From Chloroflexales bacterium ZM16-3 (GTDB taxonomy: Bacteria; Chloroflexota; Chloroflexia; Chloroflexales; Chloroflexaceae): DNA of 64,000 nucleotides. The stretch spans positions 1 through 64,000 of the forward strand of contig RYFE02000026.1 in NCBI GenBank assembly GCA_004138175.2, written 5' to 3'. The position numbers and the translations under genes are program-made. Shown here one piece after another: positions 376 through 5,955 of the stretch; the stretch's first letter is position 1, and every line of letters starts with the position of its first letter. Below the pieces are notes generated by a model. It made no database searches. It worked only from the letters and a program-made list of their open reading frames with translations, and had not been told where the DNA came from.

Positions 376-1671
376 ATGACCTTCGCCCGCCCCCGACTTG
401 TCGCCCTGGCGGCGATGATCGCCCTGGCCGCCTGCGGCGCGCAGCCCGCCGCCGCCCCGCCCGCGCCCACAGATTCCCCGACCGCCGCCGCCCCGACCAG
501 TGGCGATCTGGATGTTGCCAGCTGGGACAGCGTGCTGGCCGCCGCGCGCGGACAGACGGTGAATTGGTACATATGGGGCGGCTCCGAGAGCATCAACCGC
601 TTTGTGGATGACTTCTACGGCAAACCGCTGCAGGAGCGCTATGGCATCACGCTCAACCGCGTGCCGCTGGCCGACACGGTGGACGCGGTGAACCAGGTGC
701 TCAGCGAGAAGACAGCCGGCAAAGACCCAGGTGCCGTCGACATGATCTGGATCAACGGCGAGAACTTCCTCTCGCTCAAGCAGGCCGACATGCTCTACGC
801 AGGCTGGTCGCAGGCCATCCCCAACGCCAAGCTGGTCAACTGGACGAACCCGGCGGTCTCCCTGGACTTTGGCGAGCCGGTGGAGACCCTGGAGAGCCCC
901 TGGTCGTCGGCGCAGTTCCAGCTGATCTACGACTCGGCGCGCATGGGCGCCGACGAGCTGCCGCGCTCGTACGCCGGGCTGCTGGCGTGGGTCAAGGCGC
1001 ACCCCGGCCGATTCACCTACATCGCGCCGGGGCCGGGGGCCTTCCAGGGCACCCGCTTCGTCAAGGGCGCCCTGTTCGAGCTGAGCGGCGACGCCAAGCA
1101 GTGGCTGGGCTTCGACCAGGCCCTGTGGAACCAGTGGTCGCCCCAGCTCTGGGCCTACATGAGCGAGCTGAAGCCCTACCTGTGGCGCGCGGGCGAGACC
1201 TACCCGAAGGACGAGAACGAGCTGCACAGCCTGTTCGCCAACGGCGAGGTGGACTTCAGCATCACCCAGGCGATCGCCGGGGCCGGCCCGCTGATCACGG
1301 ACGGGCTGGTGCCGGAGACGGCGCGGGCCTTCGTGTTCGACGGCTACATGATCGGCGACTTCAACTATGTGGCCATCCCAAAGAACGCGCCGCACAAGGC
1401 GGCGGCCCTGGTGCTGGCCAACCTGATCCTCGACCCGGAGCTGCAGGCCGCGCAGATCCTGCCCGAGAACGGATTTGGCCTGGGCTATGGCATCGATGTG
1501 ACGAAGGTGACCGACCCGGCGGCGCGGGAGAAGCTGGATGCGGCGGCCAGGCAGCTGGGCGACGCAGCCACCCCCGCCGCCGACCTGGCGAAGGCGCTGG
1601 TGGGCGACAGCGCTGGCGCGTATCAGGCCCTGGTCGAGGAGGGCTGGCGGACGAATGTGCTGATCAAATGA
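376..1671 (+). CDS. ynjB: YnjB-like ABC transporter substrate-binding lipoprotein
   Basis: This 431-residue extracytoplasmic binding protein should capture the ligand of the importer encoded by the next three genes. The start has an AAAGGAG ribosome binding site. A lipoprotein signal ends in LAAC with the lipidated Cys at residue 20, followed by an Ala/Pro-rich tether. The mature part carries family landmarks seen in E. coli YnjB: NWYIWGGSESINRF, DMIWINGENF and ESPWSSAQ. The ligand of YnjBCD systems is not established; thiamine and polyamines have been suggested for related binding proteins. The stop overlaps the next start (ATGA), so translation is coupled to the first permease. Confidence 0.9.
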   Translation: MTFARPRLVALAAMIALAACGAQPAAAPPAPTDSPTAAAPTSGDLDVASWDSVLAAARGQTVNWYIWGGSESINRFVDDFYGKPLQERYGITLNRVPLADTVDAVNQVLSEKTAGKDPGAVDMIWINGENFLSLKQADMLYAGWSQAIPNAKLVNWTNPAVSLDFGEPVETLESPWSSAQFQLIYDSARMGADELPRSYAGLLAWVKAHPGRFTYIAPGPGAFQGTRFVKGALFELSGDAKQWLGFDQALWNQWSPQLWAYMSELKPYLWRAGETYPKDENELHSLFANGEVDFSITQAIAGAGPLITDGLVPETARAFVFDGYMIGDFNYVAIPKNAPHKAAALVLANLILDPELQAAQILPENGFGLGYGIDVTKVTDPAAREKLDAAARQLGDAATPAADLAKALVGDSAGAYQALVEEGWRTNVLIK

Positions 1672-2549
1672 CACGCTCCCGCGACACCCTCCTGATCTGG
1701 CTGGCCCTGGCCCCGGCGCTGCTGGTGGCAGGCGGCCTCTTTGGGGCCAGCCTGTTCGACGGGGTGGCCCAGAGCCTGGGCGACCTGGCGATCATCGGCG
1801 AGCGTCGGCTGAGCCTCGACGCCTACGCCCATGTGCTCGGCGGGGCCACGCCCGCCGGGCGCGAGTTTTGGGTCGCCCTGGGCTTCTCGCTCTGGGTGAG
1901 CGGGGCATCCACGCTGCTGGCGGCGGCGGGCGCGCTGCTGCTCGCCGTGGCCCTCGGCGGGCGCGCCGGCCGCGCTGGCGGCGGTGACCTGCTCGTCTTG
2001 AATGCCAACCTCGCCCTGCCCCATCTCGTCTGGGCGATCGCCCTGCTGCTCTTGCTCGCCCAGAGCGGGCTGGTCGCCCGGATCGCCGCCGCCCTTGGCC
2101 TGATCCACATCCCCGCCGACTTCCCGGTGCTGGTGCGCGACCGCGCGGGGCTGGGGATCATCCTGCACTATGTGGGCAAGGAGACCCCCTTCCTGGCCTT
2201 ACTGGTGCTGGCCGTGCTGCGCACCCAGGGCCAGGCCTACGACGCGGTGGCGGCCACGCTGGGGGCCGGGCCGTGGCAGCGGCTGCGCCGGGTGACTCTG
2301 CCGCTCGTGCTGCCCGGGCTGGCCGCAGGGTCACTGCTGGTCTTCGCCTTCATCTTCGGGGCCTACGAGGTACCGGCCCTGCTGGGGGTGCGCTACCCGC
2401 GCGCCCTCGCGGTGCTGGCCCTCGACTACTTCGCCAACCCCGACCTCGGGCGCCGCGCCGAGGGCATGGCGATCAGCCTGATCATGGCGCTGGTTGTGGT
2501 CGCCGTCGCCGGGCTCGGCCGGGCACTGGGAGGGACACATGCGGGCTAA
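1668..2549 (+). CDS. YnjC-like ABC importer permease, first half
   Basis: A 293-residue inner-membrane permease with about six hydrophobic helices. The cytoplasmic coupling (EAA-type) loop YDAVAATLGAG...RVTLPLVLPG lies near residue 190. The ATG at 1668 overlaps the lipoprotein stop as ATGA, which fixes the start although the frame is open further upstream. In E. coli the YnjC permease is one long two-domain protein; here the two domains are separate genes that overlap by 11 bases. It pairs with the product of 2539-3360 to form the channel. Confidence 0.88.
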   Translation: MTRSRDTLLIWLALAPALLVAGGLFGASLFDGVAQSLGDLAIIGERRLSLDAYAHVLGGATPAGREFWVALGFSLWVSGASTLLAAAGALLLAVALGGRAGRAGGGDLLVLNANLALPHLVWAIALLLLLAQSGLVARIAAALGLIHIPADFPVLVRDRAGLGIILHYVGKETPFLALLVLAVLRTQGQAYDAVAATLGAGPWQRLRRVTLPLVLPGLAAGSLLVFAFIFGAYEVPALLGVRYPRALAVLALDYFANPDLGRRAEGMAISLIMALVVVAVAGLGRALGGTHAG

Positions 2550-3360
2550 CCCGAACTCCGGTCGGCGGGCCTGGGCCGCCGGCCTCCCGCAGCGCGTCGC
2601 CCTCGCCGCGCTGCTGCTCGGCCCGGTGTTCGCCCTCGTGGTGTACGCCGGCTCGGCGCGCTGGTTCTACCCGGCGCTGCTCCCGGCGGCGTGGACTCTC
2701 GGCCCACTCCAAGAGCAGCTGAGCAGCCCGCGCACCCGCGCGGCGCTCCTAACGAGCCTCCTGATCGCCGGATCGGTGACAGGGTTGTCCCTGCTGATCG
2801 GGCTGCCGGCGGCCTATGTGCTGGGCCTGCGGCGCTTCCGTGGGCGGCTGGCCGTGCTGCTGCTGCTCTTCCTGCCCAGCGTGGTGCCACCGCTGGCCAC
2901 CGGCATGGGCCTGAACATCCTCTTCCTGCGCCTCGGCCTGGCGGGGGGGATCAGCGGCGTTGTGCTCGTGCATCTGGTGCCGGTGCTGCCGTACACCGTC
3001 TTCGCCCTGCTCGGCGTCTTCGCCCGCTACGATGAGGGCTACGAGCAGCAGGCGCGCACCCTGGGGGCCGGACGCGCGCAGGTGATCTGGCGCGTGACCC
3101 TGCCGCTGGCCGGGCCAGGCATCATCGTCGCCGGGCTGTTCGCTTTCCTGGTGTCCTGGAGCCAGTATGTGCTCACCCTGCTGATCGGCGGCGGACAGGT
3201 GATCAGCCTGCCGCTGCTGCTCTTCGCGGCGGTGTCGGGCGGGCGGCCCGCCAGCATCGCCGCCCTGGCCCTGATCTTCGCCACCCCGCCGCTCCTCGCC
3301 ATCGCCCTGGCCTCCCGGGCGCTGGCGGGCGGGACGGCGCGCGTGGAGCAGCAGTATTGA
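2539..3360 (+). CDS. YnjC-like ABC importer permease, second half
   Basis: A 273-residue permease, the second membrane half of the importer. The ATG at 2539 is preceded by GGGAGG with good spacing and lies inside the end of the first permease gene. Hydrophobic segments cover most of the chain, and the coupling motif YEQQARTLGAG...VTLPLAGPGI lies near residue 166. The stop at 3360 is nine bases before the ATPase start, so the operon order is binding protein, permease, permease, ATPase. Confidence 0.88.
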   Translation: MRANPNSGRRAWAAGLPQRVALAALLLGPVFALVVYAGSARWFYPALLPAAWTLGPLQEQLSSPRTRAALLTSLLIAGSVTGLSLLIGLPAAYVLGLRRFRGRLAVLLLLFLPSVVPPLATGMGLNILFLRLGLAGGISGVVLVHLVPVLPYTVFALLGVFARYDEGYEQQARTLGAGRAQVIWRVTLPLAGPGIIVAGLFAFLVSWSQYVLTLLIGGGQVISLPLLLFAAVSGGRPASIAALALIFATPPLLAIALASRALAGGTARVEQQY

Positions 3361-3369
3361 AGAGGTTGC

Positions 3370-4449
3370 ATGACCCAGATTGAGCTCGTCGAGCTGCACA
3401 AATCCTACCCGCGCCAGGCGCACCCGGCGGTCGCGGGCGTCTCGCTGAATGTGGAGCCGCACACGCTGCTGGCCCTGCTGGGGCCGTCGGGCAGCGGCAA
3501 GTCCAGCATCCTCAAGCTGATCGCCGGGATCGAGCCGCCCGACGCGGGCGACATCCGCCTTGGCGGCCAGAGCGTGCGGAGCGTGCCGGCCCACCGGCGC
3601 GGCGCGGTGCTGATGTTTCAGAAGGCCTACCTCTTCCCCTTCCTCTCAGTGGCCGAGAATATCGCCTTCGGCCTGCGGGTGCAGGGCGCCCGCCGCGCGA
3701 CGATCCGCGCCGAGGTCACACGCATGCTCGATCTGGTGGAGTTGCCCGGCATCGCGGCCAAGCGCCCGACCCAGCTCTCGGGCGGCGAGCAGCAGCGAGT
3801 GGCCCTGGCTCGTGCCCTGGTGGTACGCCCACGGGTGCTGCTGCTCGACGAGCCCTTCAGTAGCCTCGATGCGGCGGTGCGCCAGACGCTCCAGGAGGCG
3901 GTGCGGCGCATCCAGCGTGAGCTGGGCATCACCACCATCCTCGTCACCCACGACCGCAGCGAGGCCATGGCGCTGGCCGACCGGGTGGCCCTCCTCGACC
4001 ACGGCGCCGTGCTGGCCGCCGACACGCCGCGCCAGCTGTTTCTGCGCCCGCCGACCCGCCGCGCGGCCCGTCTGATGGGCGTTACGACCTTCCTGCGCGG
4101 CGCGGTCGCCGGGGCCAGCTTCCAGACCAGCCTGGGCACCTTTGCGATCTGCGCGGAGCACCGCCGCGACGGGCCTGCGACCTACGCGATCCGGCCCGAG
4201 CATCTGCGCCTGTGTGGTGAGCCGGGGTGCAACACCCTGCCCGCGCGCATCCTCGCCCACACCTTTCGCGGCGAGCAGAGCGAGTATCTGCTCCAGGTCG
4301 GAGACCAGACCCTGCGGGCGCGGACGTTCGCGCCAACGGCGCTGCCTGAGGGCGGCCAGATCTACGTCCAGCTCCCGCCTGAGCAGCTCTTCCCGGTCTG
4401 TGATGACGCCAGCGATACGGATCCGAAAGGCGCCGGTGAATACGCCTAG
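3370..4449 (+). CDS. ynjD: YnjD-like ABC transporter ATP-binding protein
   Basis: This is the energy-coupling subunit, 359 residues. It shows Walker A GPSGSGKSS at residues 38-46, a Q-loop (FQKAYLFPF), the ABC signature LSGGEQQR near 136, Walker B VLLLDEPF near 157 and the switch His in VTHDRSEA. The C-terminal third, about residues 240-345, has a TOBE-like beta domain (TYAIRPEHLRL), typical of importers of the CysA/PotA/ThiQ group. A GAGGTTGC sequence before the ATG is a weak ribosome binding site. The downstream hydrolase gene begins inside its 3' end. Confidence 0.93.
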   Translation: MTQIELVELHKSYPRQAHPAVAGVSLNVEPHTLLALLGPSGSGKSSILKLIAGIEPPDAGDIRLGGQSVRSVPAHRRGAVLMFQKAYLFPFLSVAENIAFGLRVQGARRATIRAEVTRMLDLVELPGIAAKRPTQLSGGEQQRVALARALVVRPRVLLLDEPFSSLDAAVRQTLQEAVRRIQRELGITTILVTHDRSEAMALADRVALLDHGAVLAADTPRQLFLRPPTRRAARLMGVTTFLRGAVAGASFQTSLGTFAICAEHRRDGPATYAIRPEHLRLCGEPGCNTLPARILAHTFRGEQSEYLLQVGDQTLRARTFAPTALPEGGQIYVQLPPEQLFPVCDDASDTDPKGAGEYA

Positions 4450-5041
4450 CCACCTGATCATCAATGCGGCCCTGCGCAAGCGGGCCAACGCCGGCGGTGC
4501 CCTGGCCATCCCACGCAGCGCCTTCCTGCTCGGGGCGGTGCTGCCCGACATCCCGCTCTGGCTGCTCTGGATCGGGGCCTATGTCTACTATCGCTATGTC
4601 CTGGGCGACATGGCCGTCACGCCGATGGACCCCAGGTTCGACCAGCTCTACTTCACGAACCCCTTCTGGATCGCCGCCCACAACCTGCTGCACGCCCCCA
4701 CCCTGCTGCTGATCGTGCTGGGGGTGCTCTGGCGCGGCCGAGCGATGGTGGGCAGCCGTCGCCACTGGTGGTTCTGGTTCGCCGCCGGCTGTCTCATGCA
4801 TACCGCCCTAGACATTCCGACCCATGCGGACGACGGCCCGGTGCTCTTCTTCCCCTTCGAGTGGAGCATCCGCTTCCATAGCCCGATGAGCTACTGGGAC
4901 CAGCGCCACTTTGGGCGGCAGTTCGCCATCTTCGAGCTTGGGCTCGATCTCGTCTTGCTCGCCTATCTCGTGATGCCCTGGCTCGTGCGGCGTATGCGCG
5001 GGCACCGCAGCGACTCGCCGCCACAGGAACCGCACCCATGA
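4436..5041 (+). CDS. YdjM/DUF457-like membrane-bound hydrolase
   Basis: A 201-residue membrane protein with several hydrophobic helices (GAVLPDIPLWLLWIGAYV, LLHAPTLLLIVLGVLW, LDLVLLAYLVMPW). Histidine/aspartate pairs in LPD, AAHNLLHAP and MHTALDIPTHADDG fit the metal-ligand pattern of the YdjM/DUF457 family of putative metal-dependent membrane hydrolases. I chose GTG 4436, which overlaps the ATPase end by 14 bases and has AAAGG upstream; ATG 4403 is an alternative in the same frame. It belongs to the importer operon, but its relation to transport is unknown. Confidence 0.7.
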   Translation: MNTPSHLIINAALRKRANAGGALAIPRSAFLLGAVLPDIPLWLLWIGAYVYYRYVLGDMAVTPMDPRFDQLYFTNPFWIAAHNLLHAPTLLLIVLGVLWRGRAMVGSRRHWWFWFAAGCLMHTALDIPTHADDGPVLFFPFEWSIRFHSPMSYWDQRHFGRQFAIFELGLDLVLLAYLVMPWLVRRMRGHRSDSPPQEPHP

Positions 5042-5099
5042 ATCAACACACGGTGCTTATCACCGGCGGGGCCGACGGGATCGGCTGGGCGCTGACTGC
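5038..5099 (+). pseudogene. Truncated short-chain dehydrogenase start (stub)
   Basis: The ATG at 5038 overlaps the stop of the hydrolase gene (ATGA). It encodes MNQHTVLITGGADGIGWAL, the first beta strand and the TGxxxGIG dinucleotide-binding turn of a short-chain dehydrogenase/reductase. The SDR similarity stops after about 20 codons and the frame runs into the following selenoprotein-type gene. A deletion therefore probably removed the rest of an SDR gene that once closed this operon. Confidence 0.7.
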
Positions 5100-5124
5100 C
5101 CATAATACAATGGAGAGACATGCC

Positions 5125-5955
5125 ATGCCGGTACCAGACCGCCTGCGACAGTGGATGGGGCGCGCCTACGGACAGCTCTACACGCGGCTCCCGGCCCTGG
5201 CCCGCCGCTGGGGGCGTCGCTTCGACGCCCTCACGAGCGATGACGTGCCGTTCACCTGGTTCCGCACCCCGCTGCACCGCTGCCGGCTCGCCTTCATCAC
5301 GACGGGCGGCGTGCATCTGCGGACGCAGCCGCCCTACCGGATGGATGACTCACACGGCGACCCGAGCTTCCGCGCGATCGCGGCCAGCACCCCGGCGGAA
5401 CAGCTGATGATCACCCACGACTACTACGATCACCGCGATGCGGAGCACGACCTGAACATCCTCTTCCCGCTGGCCCTCGGGCGCGAGCTGGTGGCGCAGG
5501 GCGCGCTTGGCGGCCTCGGCACCAGCTACAGCTTTATGGGCCACATCGAGCCGCCCCACGTCGCGACCCTGCTGCGCCGCACCGCGCCCGAGGTGGCACG
5601 GCAGCTGCGCCAGGAGCAGATCGACGCGGTGCTGCTGACCCCGGCCTGAGGCATCTGCAACCAGTCCGTCGGACTGGTCGCGCGGGTGATCGAGGCCGTC
5701 GGCATCCCGACCGTCTGCGTGGTCGGGATACGCGAGATCGCCGAGCGGGTGCGCCCGCCGCGGGCAGTGCATCTCAAGTGGCCGTTTGGCCACCCACTGG
5801 GCGAGCCGGGCAATCGCGCCCAGCAGCTCAGCGTGATCCACTTCGCGCTCACGGCGCTCGCCACAGTGCAGGAGCCGGGGGCCATCCTCGACCCAGGCTG
5901 GCGCTGGCGGCGCGAAACGTACCGCGAGCCGGATTCCTGGGCGCTGCCGGTGTGA
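5125..5955 (+). CDS. Glycine/sarcosine/betaine-reductase selenoprotein-B-family protein with predicted Sec (in-frame UGA)
   Basis: Read through the TGA at 5647-5649, this frame gives 276 residues with selenocysteine at 175. Before the TGA it has YDHRDAEHDLNILFPL and GTSYSFMGHI, and after it UGICNQSVGLVARVIEAVGIPT and a WPFGHPLGEP segment. All of these are landmarks of the GrdB/PrdB-related reductase family, whose redox motif is UxxC (or CxxC in Cys forms). Without readthrough the protein would stop at its active site. A hairpin that meets bacterial SECIS rules follows the UGA. ATG 5125 is chosen because GGAG lies nine bases upstream; the frame also stays open back to 5038. Such proteins are thiol/selenol reductases; the substrate here is unknown. 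No selenium-insertion genes lie in the window. Confidence 0.75.
5656..5682 (+). promoter_or_regulatory. Bacterial SECIS-like hairpin
   Basis: Directly after the in-frame UGA lies the stem ACCAGTCC (5660-5667), the loop GTC (5668-5670) and the stem GGACTGGT (5671-5678). It is extended by further pairs below one A-C mismatch. The loop starts 18 bases after the UGA and its first base is G. This fits the known bacterial SECIS rule of a 3-14-base loop with a G in its first two positions, placed about 16-37 bases from the UGA. Confidence 0.75.

Follow-up and report, generated by a model that had tools for sequence, protein, structure and literature searches.

A predicted PrdB-like selenoprotein of Chloroflexales, probably misnamed as a D-proline reductase

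Both D-proline reductase and glycine reductase need a subunit that forms a pyruvoyl group (PrdA or GrdE). The redox motif of PrdB is UxxC, and that of GrdB, from glycine, sarcosine and betaine reductase, is given by a review as UxxCxxC (PMC13188914). In Synergistota, the GrdB- and GrdE-like proteins FarB and FarE have been proposed to reduce fluoroacetate (PMC10838667). Catalogues have listed PrdB selenoproteins since 2005, and ocean metagenomes are rich in them: 42 genes were reported from the Sargasso Sea (PMC1088965) and 235 sequences from the Global Ocean Sampling (PMC2398784), and a 2016 survey lists a "proline reductase" selenoprotein in 110 organisms (PMC5029168). Thus, the kind of selenoprotein described here is already known. 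For Chloroflexi, a 2006 count gave three selenoprotein families (PMC1794560). We found no paper on the PrdB-like selenoproteins of Chloroflexales in the open-access literature.

We analyzed a window of 64,000 nucleotides from Chloroflexales bacterium ZM16-3 (contig RYFE02000026.1). Taken as a whole, the segment 5125-5955 is best explained, with high confidence, as a PrdB-like selenoprotein gene (Table 1). Its frame is interrupted once, by an in-frame TGA at 5647-5649, and no further stop occurs before the gene ends at TGA 5953-5955; reading through gives a product of 276 residues (5125-5952) with the motif U175-G-I-C178. The earlier note had seen family similarity run in frame across this TGA and form a U-G-I-C motif, and the read-through translation confirmed both. 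The start is soundly placed at 5125, or 5110: GGAGAG at 5112-5117 suits the ATG at 5125 as a ribosome-binding site, and the nearest relative becomes similar again from 5110 onward. The reading corrects a likely truncated gene call.

Table 1. Features of the PrdB-like gene (positions within the window)
Feature	Position	Strand	Basis
PrdB-like selenoprotein gene (predicted), 276 residues, Sec at position 175	5125..5955	+	read-through translation; TIGR04483; PF07355; AlphaFold
UGA codon, predicted to be read as selenocysteine (U175)	5647..5649	+	column conservation; Cys codons at same position in sister subfamily
Codon of putative resolving cysteine C178, UxxC motif	5656..5658	+	invariant in both homologue alignments
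Alternative in-frame start (MERHA)	5110..5124	+	sequence; similarity to nearest relative from 5110 on
Predicted SECIS hairpin: 8-bp stem ACCAGTCC/GGACTGGT, loop GTC	5660..5678	+	fold; synonymous constraint; covariation

We compared the gene with its homologues in 61 genomes, comprising its own and those of its genus, family and order. PrdB-like matches were present in 30 of the 61; about 25 of them span most of the length, and each of these has TGA at the equivalent column. Among named relatives, Oscillochloris sp. ZM17-4 is the nearest (94%). A wider, species-level collection of genomes yielded 212 loci for related proteins. The best 80 of these 212, which belong to Chloroflexota, Geobacteraceae, Nitrospirae, Methylomirabilota, SAR324 and further groups, have TGA at this column without exception (80/80). 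The earlier note had held that unrelated disruptions in close relatives would speak against its reading; the relatives show the same single TGA instead. Past the TGA, residues C178, R187, E190, R213, G222 and G226 are invariant in the homologue alignments.

These data bear on two other readings of the TGA. A nonsense mutation might have broken the gene and left everything after 5649 as a decaying pseudogene, as the one stop codon in the frame and a clearly degraded partial copy elsewhere in the genome (contig C35) could suggest. Such a history is very improbable given that the TGA is kept in all of the best 80 of 212 loci across several phyla, that the frame holds no other stop before its end and that conservation after the TGA is like that before it. 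Alternatively, the UGA could simply end translation, giving a functional product of 174 residues and leaving the remainder non-coding or as a separate protein. A frame of 203 codons does terminate at 5649, and a GTG-start ORF comes next, at 5686. However, the downstream half has many invariant residues, among them the latter part of the UxxC motif, and is part of one compact predicted fold, so we consider plain termination highly unlikely.

In a sister subfamily from other Chloroflexota, the corresponding motif is [U/C]-P-L-C-H-R, and Sec and Cys codons exchange at the same position: 7 loci have TGA and 9 have TGC or TGT. Downstream, the codons of most Cys versions have drifted away from the hairpin sequence of the Sec versions. 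One locus, L188, keeps the hairpin sequence, and we read it as a probable recent Sec-to-Cys change. A paralogue in two order-level relatives (L069, G043:C42; L072, G046:C53) has two in-frame TGAs three codons apart, U-P-I-U-H. The double TGA is conserved in both genomes and may be a double-selenocysteine UxxU motif.

Bacterial SECIS elements are stem-loops shortly 3' of the UGA, with a small apical loop that contains a G (PMC1088965). Here, arms at 5660-5667 and 5671-5678 enclose a loop at 5668-5670. Counted from the UGA, the stem begins after 10 bases and the GUC loop after 18, and this arrangement is joined by both synonymous constraint and covariation. The perfect 8-bp stem and GTC loop of the earlier note stand, and its distance of 18 bases applies to the loop, not to the start of the stem. 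The segment of 42 bases behind the UGA has a folding energy of -22.4 kcal/mol; synonymous recodings give -9.8 +/- 2.7 kcal/mol, and none of 200 reached so low a value (z -4.6). Over 16 genes the same comparison gave a mean z of -2.3, with L088 and L099 unremarkable by energy alone.

The hairpin overlaps the conserved peptide NQSVGLIAR, and its conservation is therefore partly driven by the protein, a point that the synonymous test addresses. Among 25 Chloroflexales genes, synonymous codon entropy vanished or nearly vanished at Q180, S181, G183 and L184: CAG (Q180), TCC (S181) and CTG (L184) were fixed in 25/25 and GGA (G183) in 24/25, while the third base of the loop codon V182 varied. A raw Mann-Whitney test covering 15 codons past the UGA gave no significant result (p 0.12) because that stretch took in unconstrained codons. 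In a test of contiguous six-codon blocks, chosen after this result had been seen, codons 180-185 were the most constrained block of the gene, with a mean z of -7.4 versus -2.2 for the best block elsewhere (25 genes).

Covariation was scored over 87 distinct sequences. Stem cells were paired in 95.3% of cases versus 89.9% in shuffles, and two-sided changes numbered 34, versus a mean of 7.4 and a maximum of 15 in 1000 shuffles. Examples are T-A replaced by G-C or A-T, and G-C replaced by A-T. Slid versions of the stem, used as controls, were 8-52% paired. The innermost pair was lost in 15 of the 87 sequences and one outer pair was mismatched in 12. Selection acts on the hairpin at the RNA level.

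Does the genome encode the machinery to use such a hairpin? Completeness of the assembly is rated at 100% and contamination at 0.26%, and a search for selA, selB, selD and tRNA-Sec, the check proposed with the original reading, found all four, which favours selenocysteine. SelA and SelD matched at 552 and 369 bits, SelB is a 647-codon open frame whose C-terminal SelB winged-helix domain has an E value of 2.6e-17, and tRNA-Sec scored 66.9 bits, its anticodon being UCA by ARAGORN. The selD gene itself has an in-frame UGA (context CAG-U-GSK). Across the 61 genomes, selA was present in 27/28 carriers of the gene versus 19/33 non-carriers (Fisher p 0.0006, without correction for kinship). Among the matches listed for the formate dehydrogenase family, the one family searched in this way, no UGA-containing formate dehydrogenase appeared in nine Chloroflexales genomes. 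Two formate-dehydrogenase-like matches with an in-frame TGA were seen in G037, an order-level relative without a PrdB-like gene.

Decoding of the UGA as another amino acid, for instance Trp, or Cys by misreading, has next to no likelihood: the genome has a full Sec system, the SECIS-like element is under selection, and the residue that replaces Sec in the sister subfamily is Cys, not Trp. A broken gene, plain termination and alternative decoding were all rejected on conservation. The Sec machinery and the same TGA in relatives support the claim that the gene is translated with Sec and not broken. From these sequence comparisons, UGA 5647 almost certainly encodes selenocysteine by Sec insertion: SelB loaded with Sec-tRNA(UCA) would bind the hairpin at 5660-5678 and selenocysteine would then be inserted at the UGA.

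Which reductase is this? The top family match is the PrdB model TIGR04483, at 149.9 bits over model positions 20-227 of 238, half the equivalog cut-off of 300 bits. The best TIGR04483 match among 36 homologues had an E value of 1.3e-66 and, by our estimate, likewise falls below 300 bits. The GrdB family PF07355 was narrowly passed (24.6 bits versus a gathering cut-off of 22; residues 39-172), and the GrdB models scored 44-50 bits (TIGR01917, 44.0; TIGR01918, 48.5), below their curated cut-offs of 602 and 65. Assignment to the GrdB/PrdB family was thus right, PrdB being the closer of the two. The product resembles GrdB in the C-terminal region around Sec; however, GrdB models have about 435 residues, whereas the window protein consists of the C-terminal part and UxxC alone, and no GrdE was found. 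FarB is likewise a predicted Sec-containing GrdB relative with a non-amino-acid substrate, but it is of the GrdB type and is partnered by a GrdE-like protein (PMC10838667). AlphaFold predicts a compact alpha/beta fold (mean pLDDT 91.4). A sequence search of solved structures gave no relative, and fold searches returned only generic alpha/beta folds (Foldseek best E 0.06; VIA Z <=7.7), so these matches are uninformative on function.

We searched for the partner subunit with one Pfam model, PF09338, which covers PrdA and GrdE. It matched in 0/61 genomes of the relatives set, the window's own included. Among other genomes carrying a PrdB-like gene it matched in 2/46, at 310-400 bits, and in none of the remaining 44. 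The search therefore demonstrably works, and carriers are usually without the partner. Both positive genomes encode a Grd-like B protein nearby. The missing partner and the half-cut-off PrdB score are thus evidence against a D-proline reductase. There is only a small chance that the product is a true D-proline reductase subunit whose pyruvoyl partner the search missed: PrdB is its best family match over nearly the whole model, its size is similar and its UxxC is that of PrdB (PMC13188914), but against this stand the score, the absence of PF09338 matches from all 61 genomes and from all but two of the 46 other carriers, and the fact that no Prd-type genes were noted adjoining the gene in the window. 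D-proline reduction is probably the wrong function for this gene.

We infer instead that the window protein is a stand-alone selenol/thiol reductase, and we moderately favour such an enzyme over a D-proline reductase. It would most likely work without Schiff-base activation because no PrdA/GrdE-type subunit was found. The predicted product is an alpha/beta redox protein, compact and carrying the pair U175-x-x-C178. By analogy with established Grd/Prd chemistry, the selenolate would attack an activated bond of the substrate, C178 would resolve the adduct to form a selenenyl sulfide, and a thioredoxin-type donor would regenerate the enzyme.

The ocean "Proline reductase PrdB" (PMC1088965, PMC2398784), from surface sea water, has the same label, a UxxC motif and known Cys homologues. 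Likened by description, it probably belongs with the window protein in one broad PrdB-like group. The ocean proteins are known as metagenome sequences, whereas a whole genome allows the partner subunit to be sought. The earlier note had expected a selenoprotein of this family to be notable in a Chloroflexia-like genome, but it is common in Chloroflexales, broadly distributed and long catalogued (PMC1088965, PMC2398784, PMC5029168). The less familiar point is the missing partner subunit. It opens function to a direct test in relatives that can be cultured, Herpetosiphon among them, and for a large set of selenoproteins the widely used name "D-proline reductase PrdB" is probably incorrect. We give about even weight to a broader proposal: the "PrdB" selenoproteins outside amino-acid fermenters would form a distinct selenoenzyme family, with no pyruvoyl partner and a substrate other than D-proline, and together with SelD they may be a main reason why lineages such as Chloroflexus and Herpetosiphon keep the Sec machinery.

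Neighbourhood searches gave no answer on substrate or electron donor: no neighbour conserved across Chloroflexales was found, and only local clusters recur around the best 80 of 212 loci. Directly upstream (376-4449) lies an ABC transporter operon with a YnjB-type substrate-binding protein (PRK11622, 395 bits), two permeases and an ATPase; it is linked to the PrdB-like gene only in the window genome and its nearest relative. It is followed by a putative membrane protein (4433-5041) with weak PF00882/PF04307 matches. The locus of the nearest relative, otherwise colinear, lacks the segment 4457-5109. Within this segment, 5038-5104 holds about 20 first codons of an apparent short-chain dehydrogenase (MNQHTVLITGGADGIGWALT), upstream of and in frame with the PrdB-like gene. 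This piece is a truncated remnant and is absent at the relative's locus.

The same genome holds a degraded second copy of the cluster (L074, G000:C35, approximately bases 280-1010), in which deletions have joined the start of the substrate-binding protein to the end of a YdjM-like membrane protein and to the middle part of the PrdB-like gene. Elsewhere, at seven loci from Methylomirabilota and one Acidobacteriota genome (L107, L129, L140, L143, L153, L154 and L158), the PrdB-like gene is preceded by a radical SAM gene and, in most cases, by a metallophosphoesterase gene. At L158 the radical SAM domain forms a fusion with an arsenite-methyltransferase-like domain, and this neighbourhood, the fusion included, is a possible functional lead.
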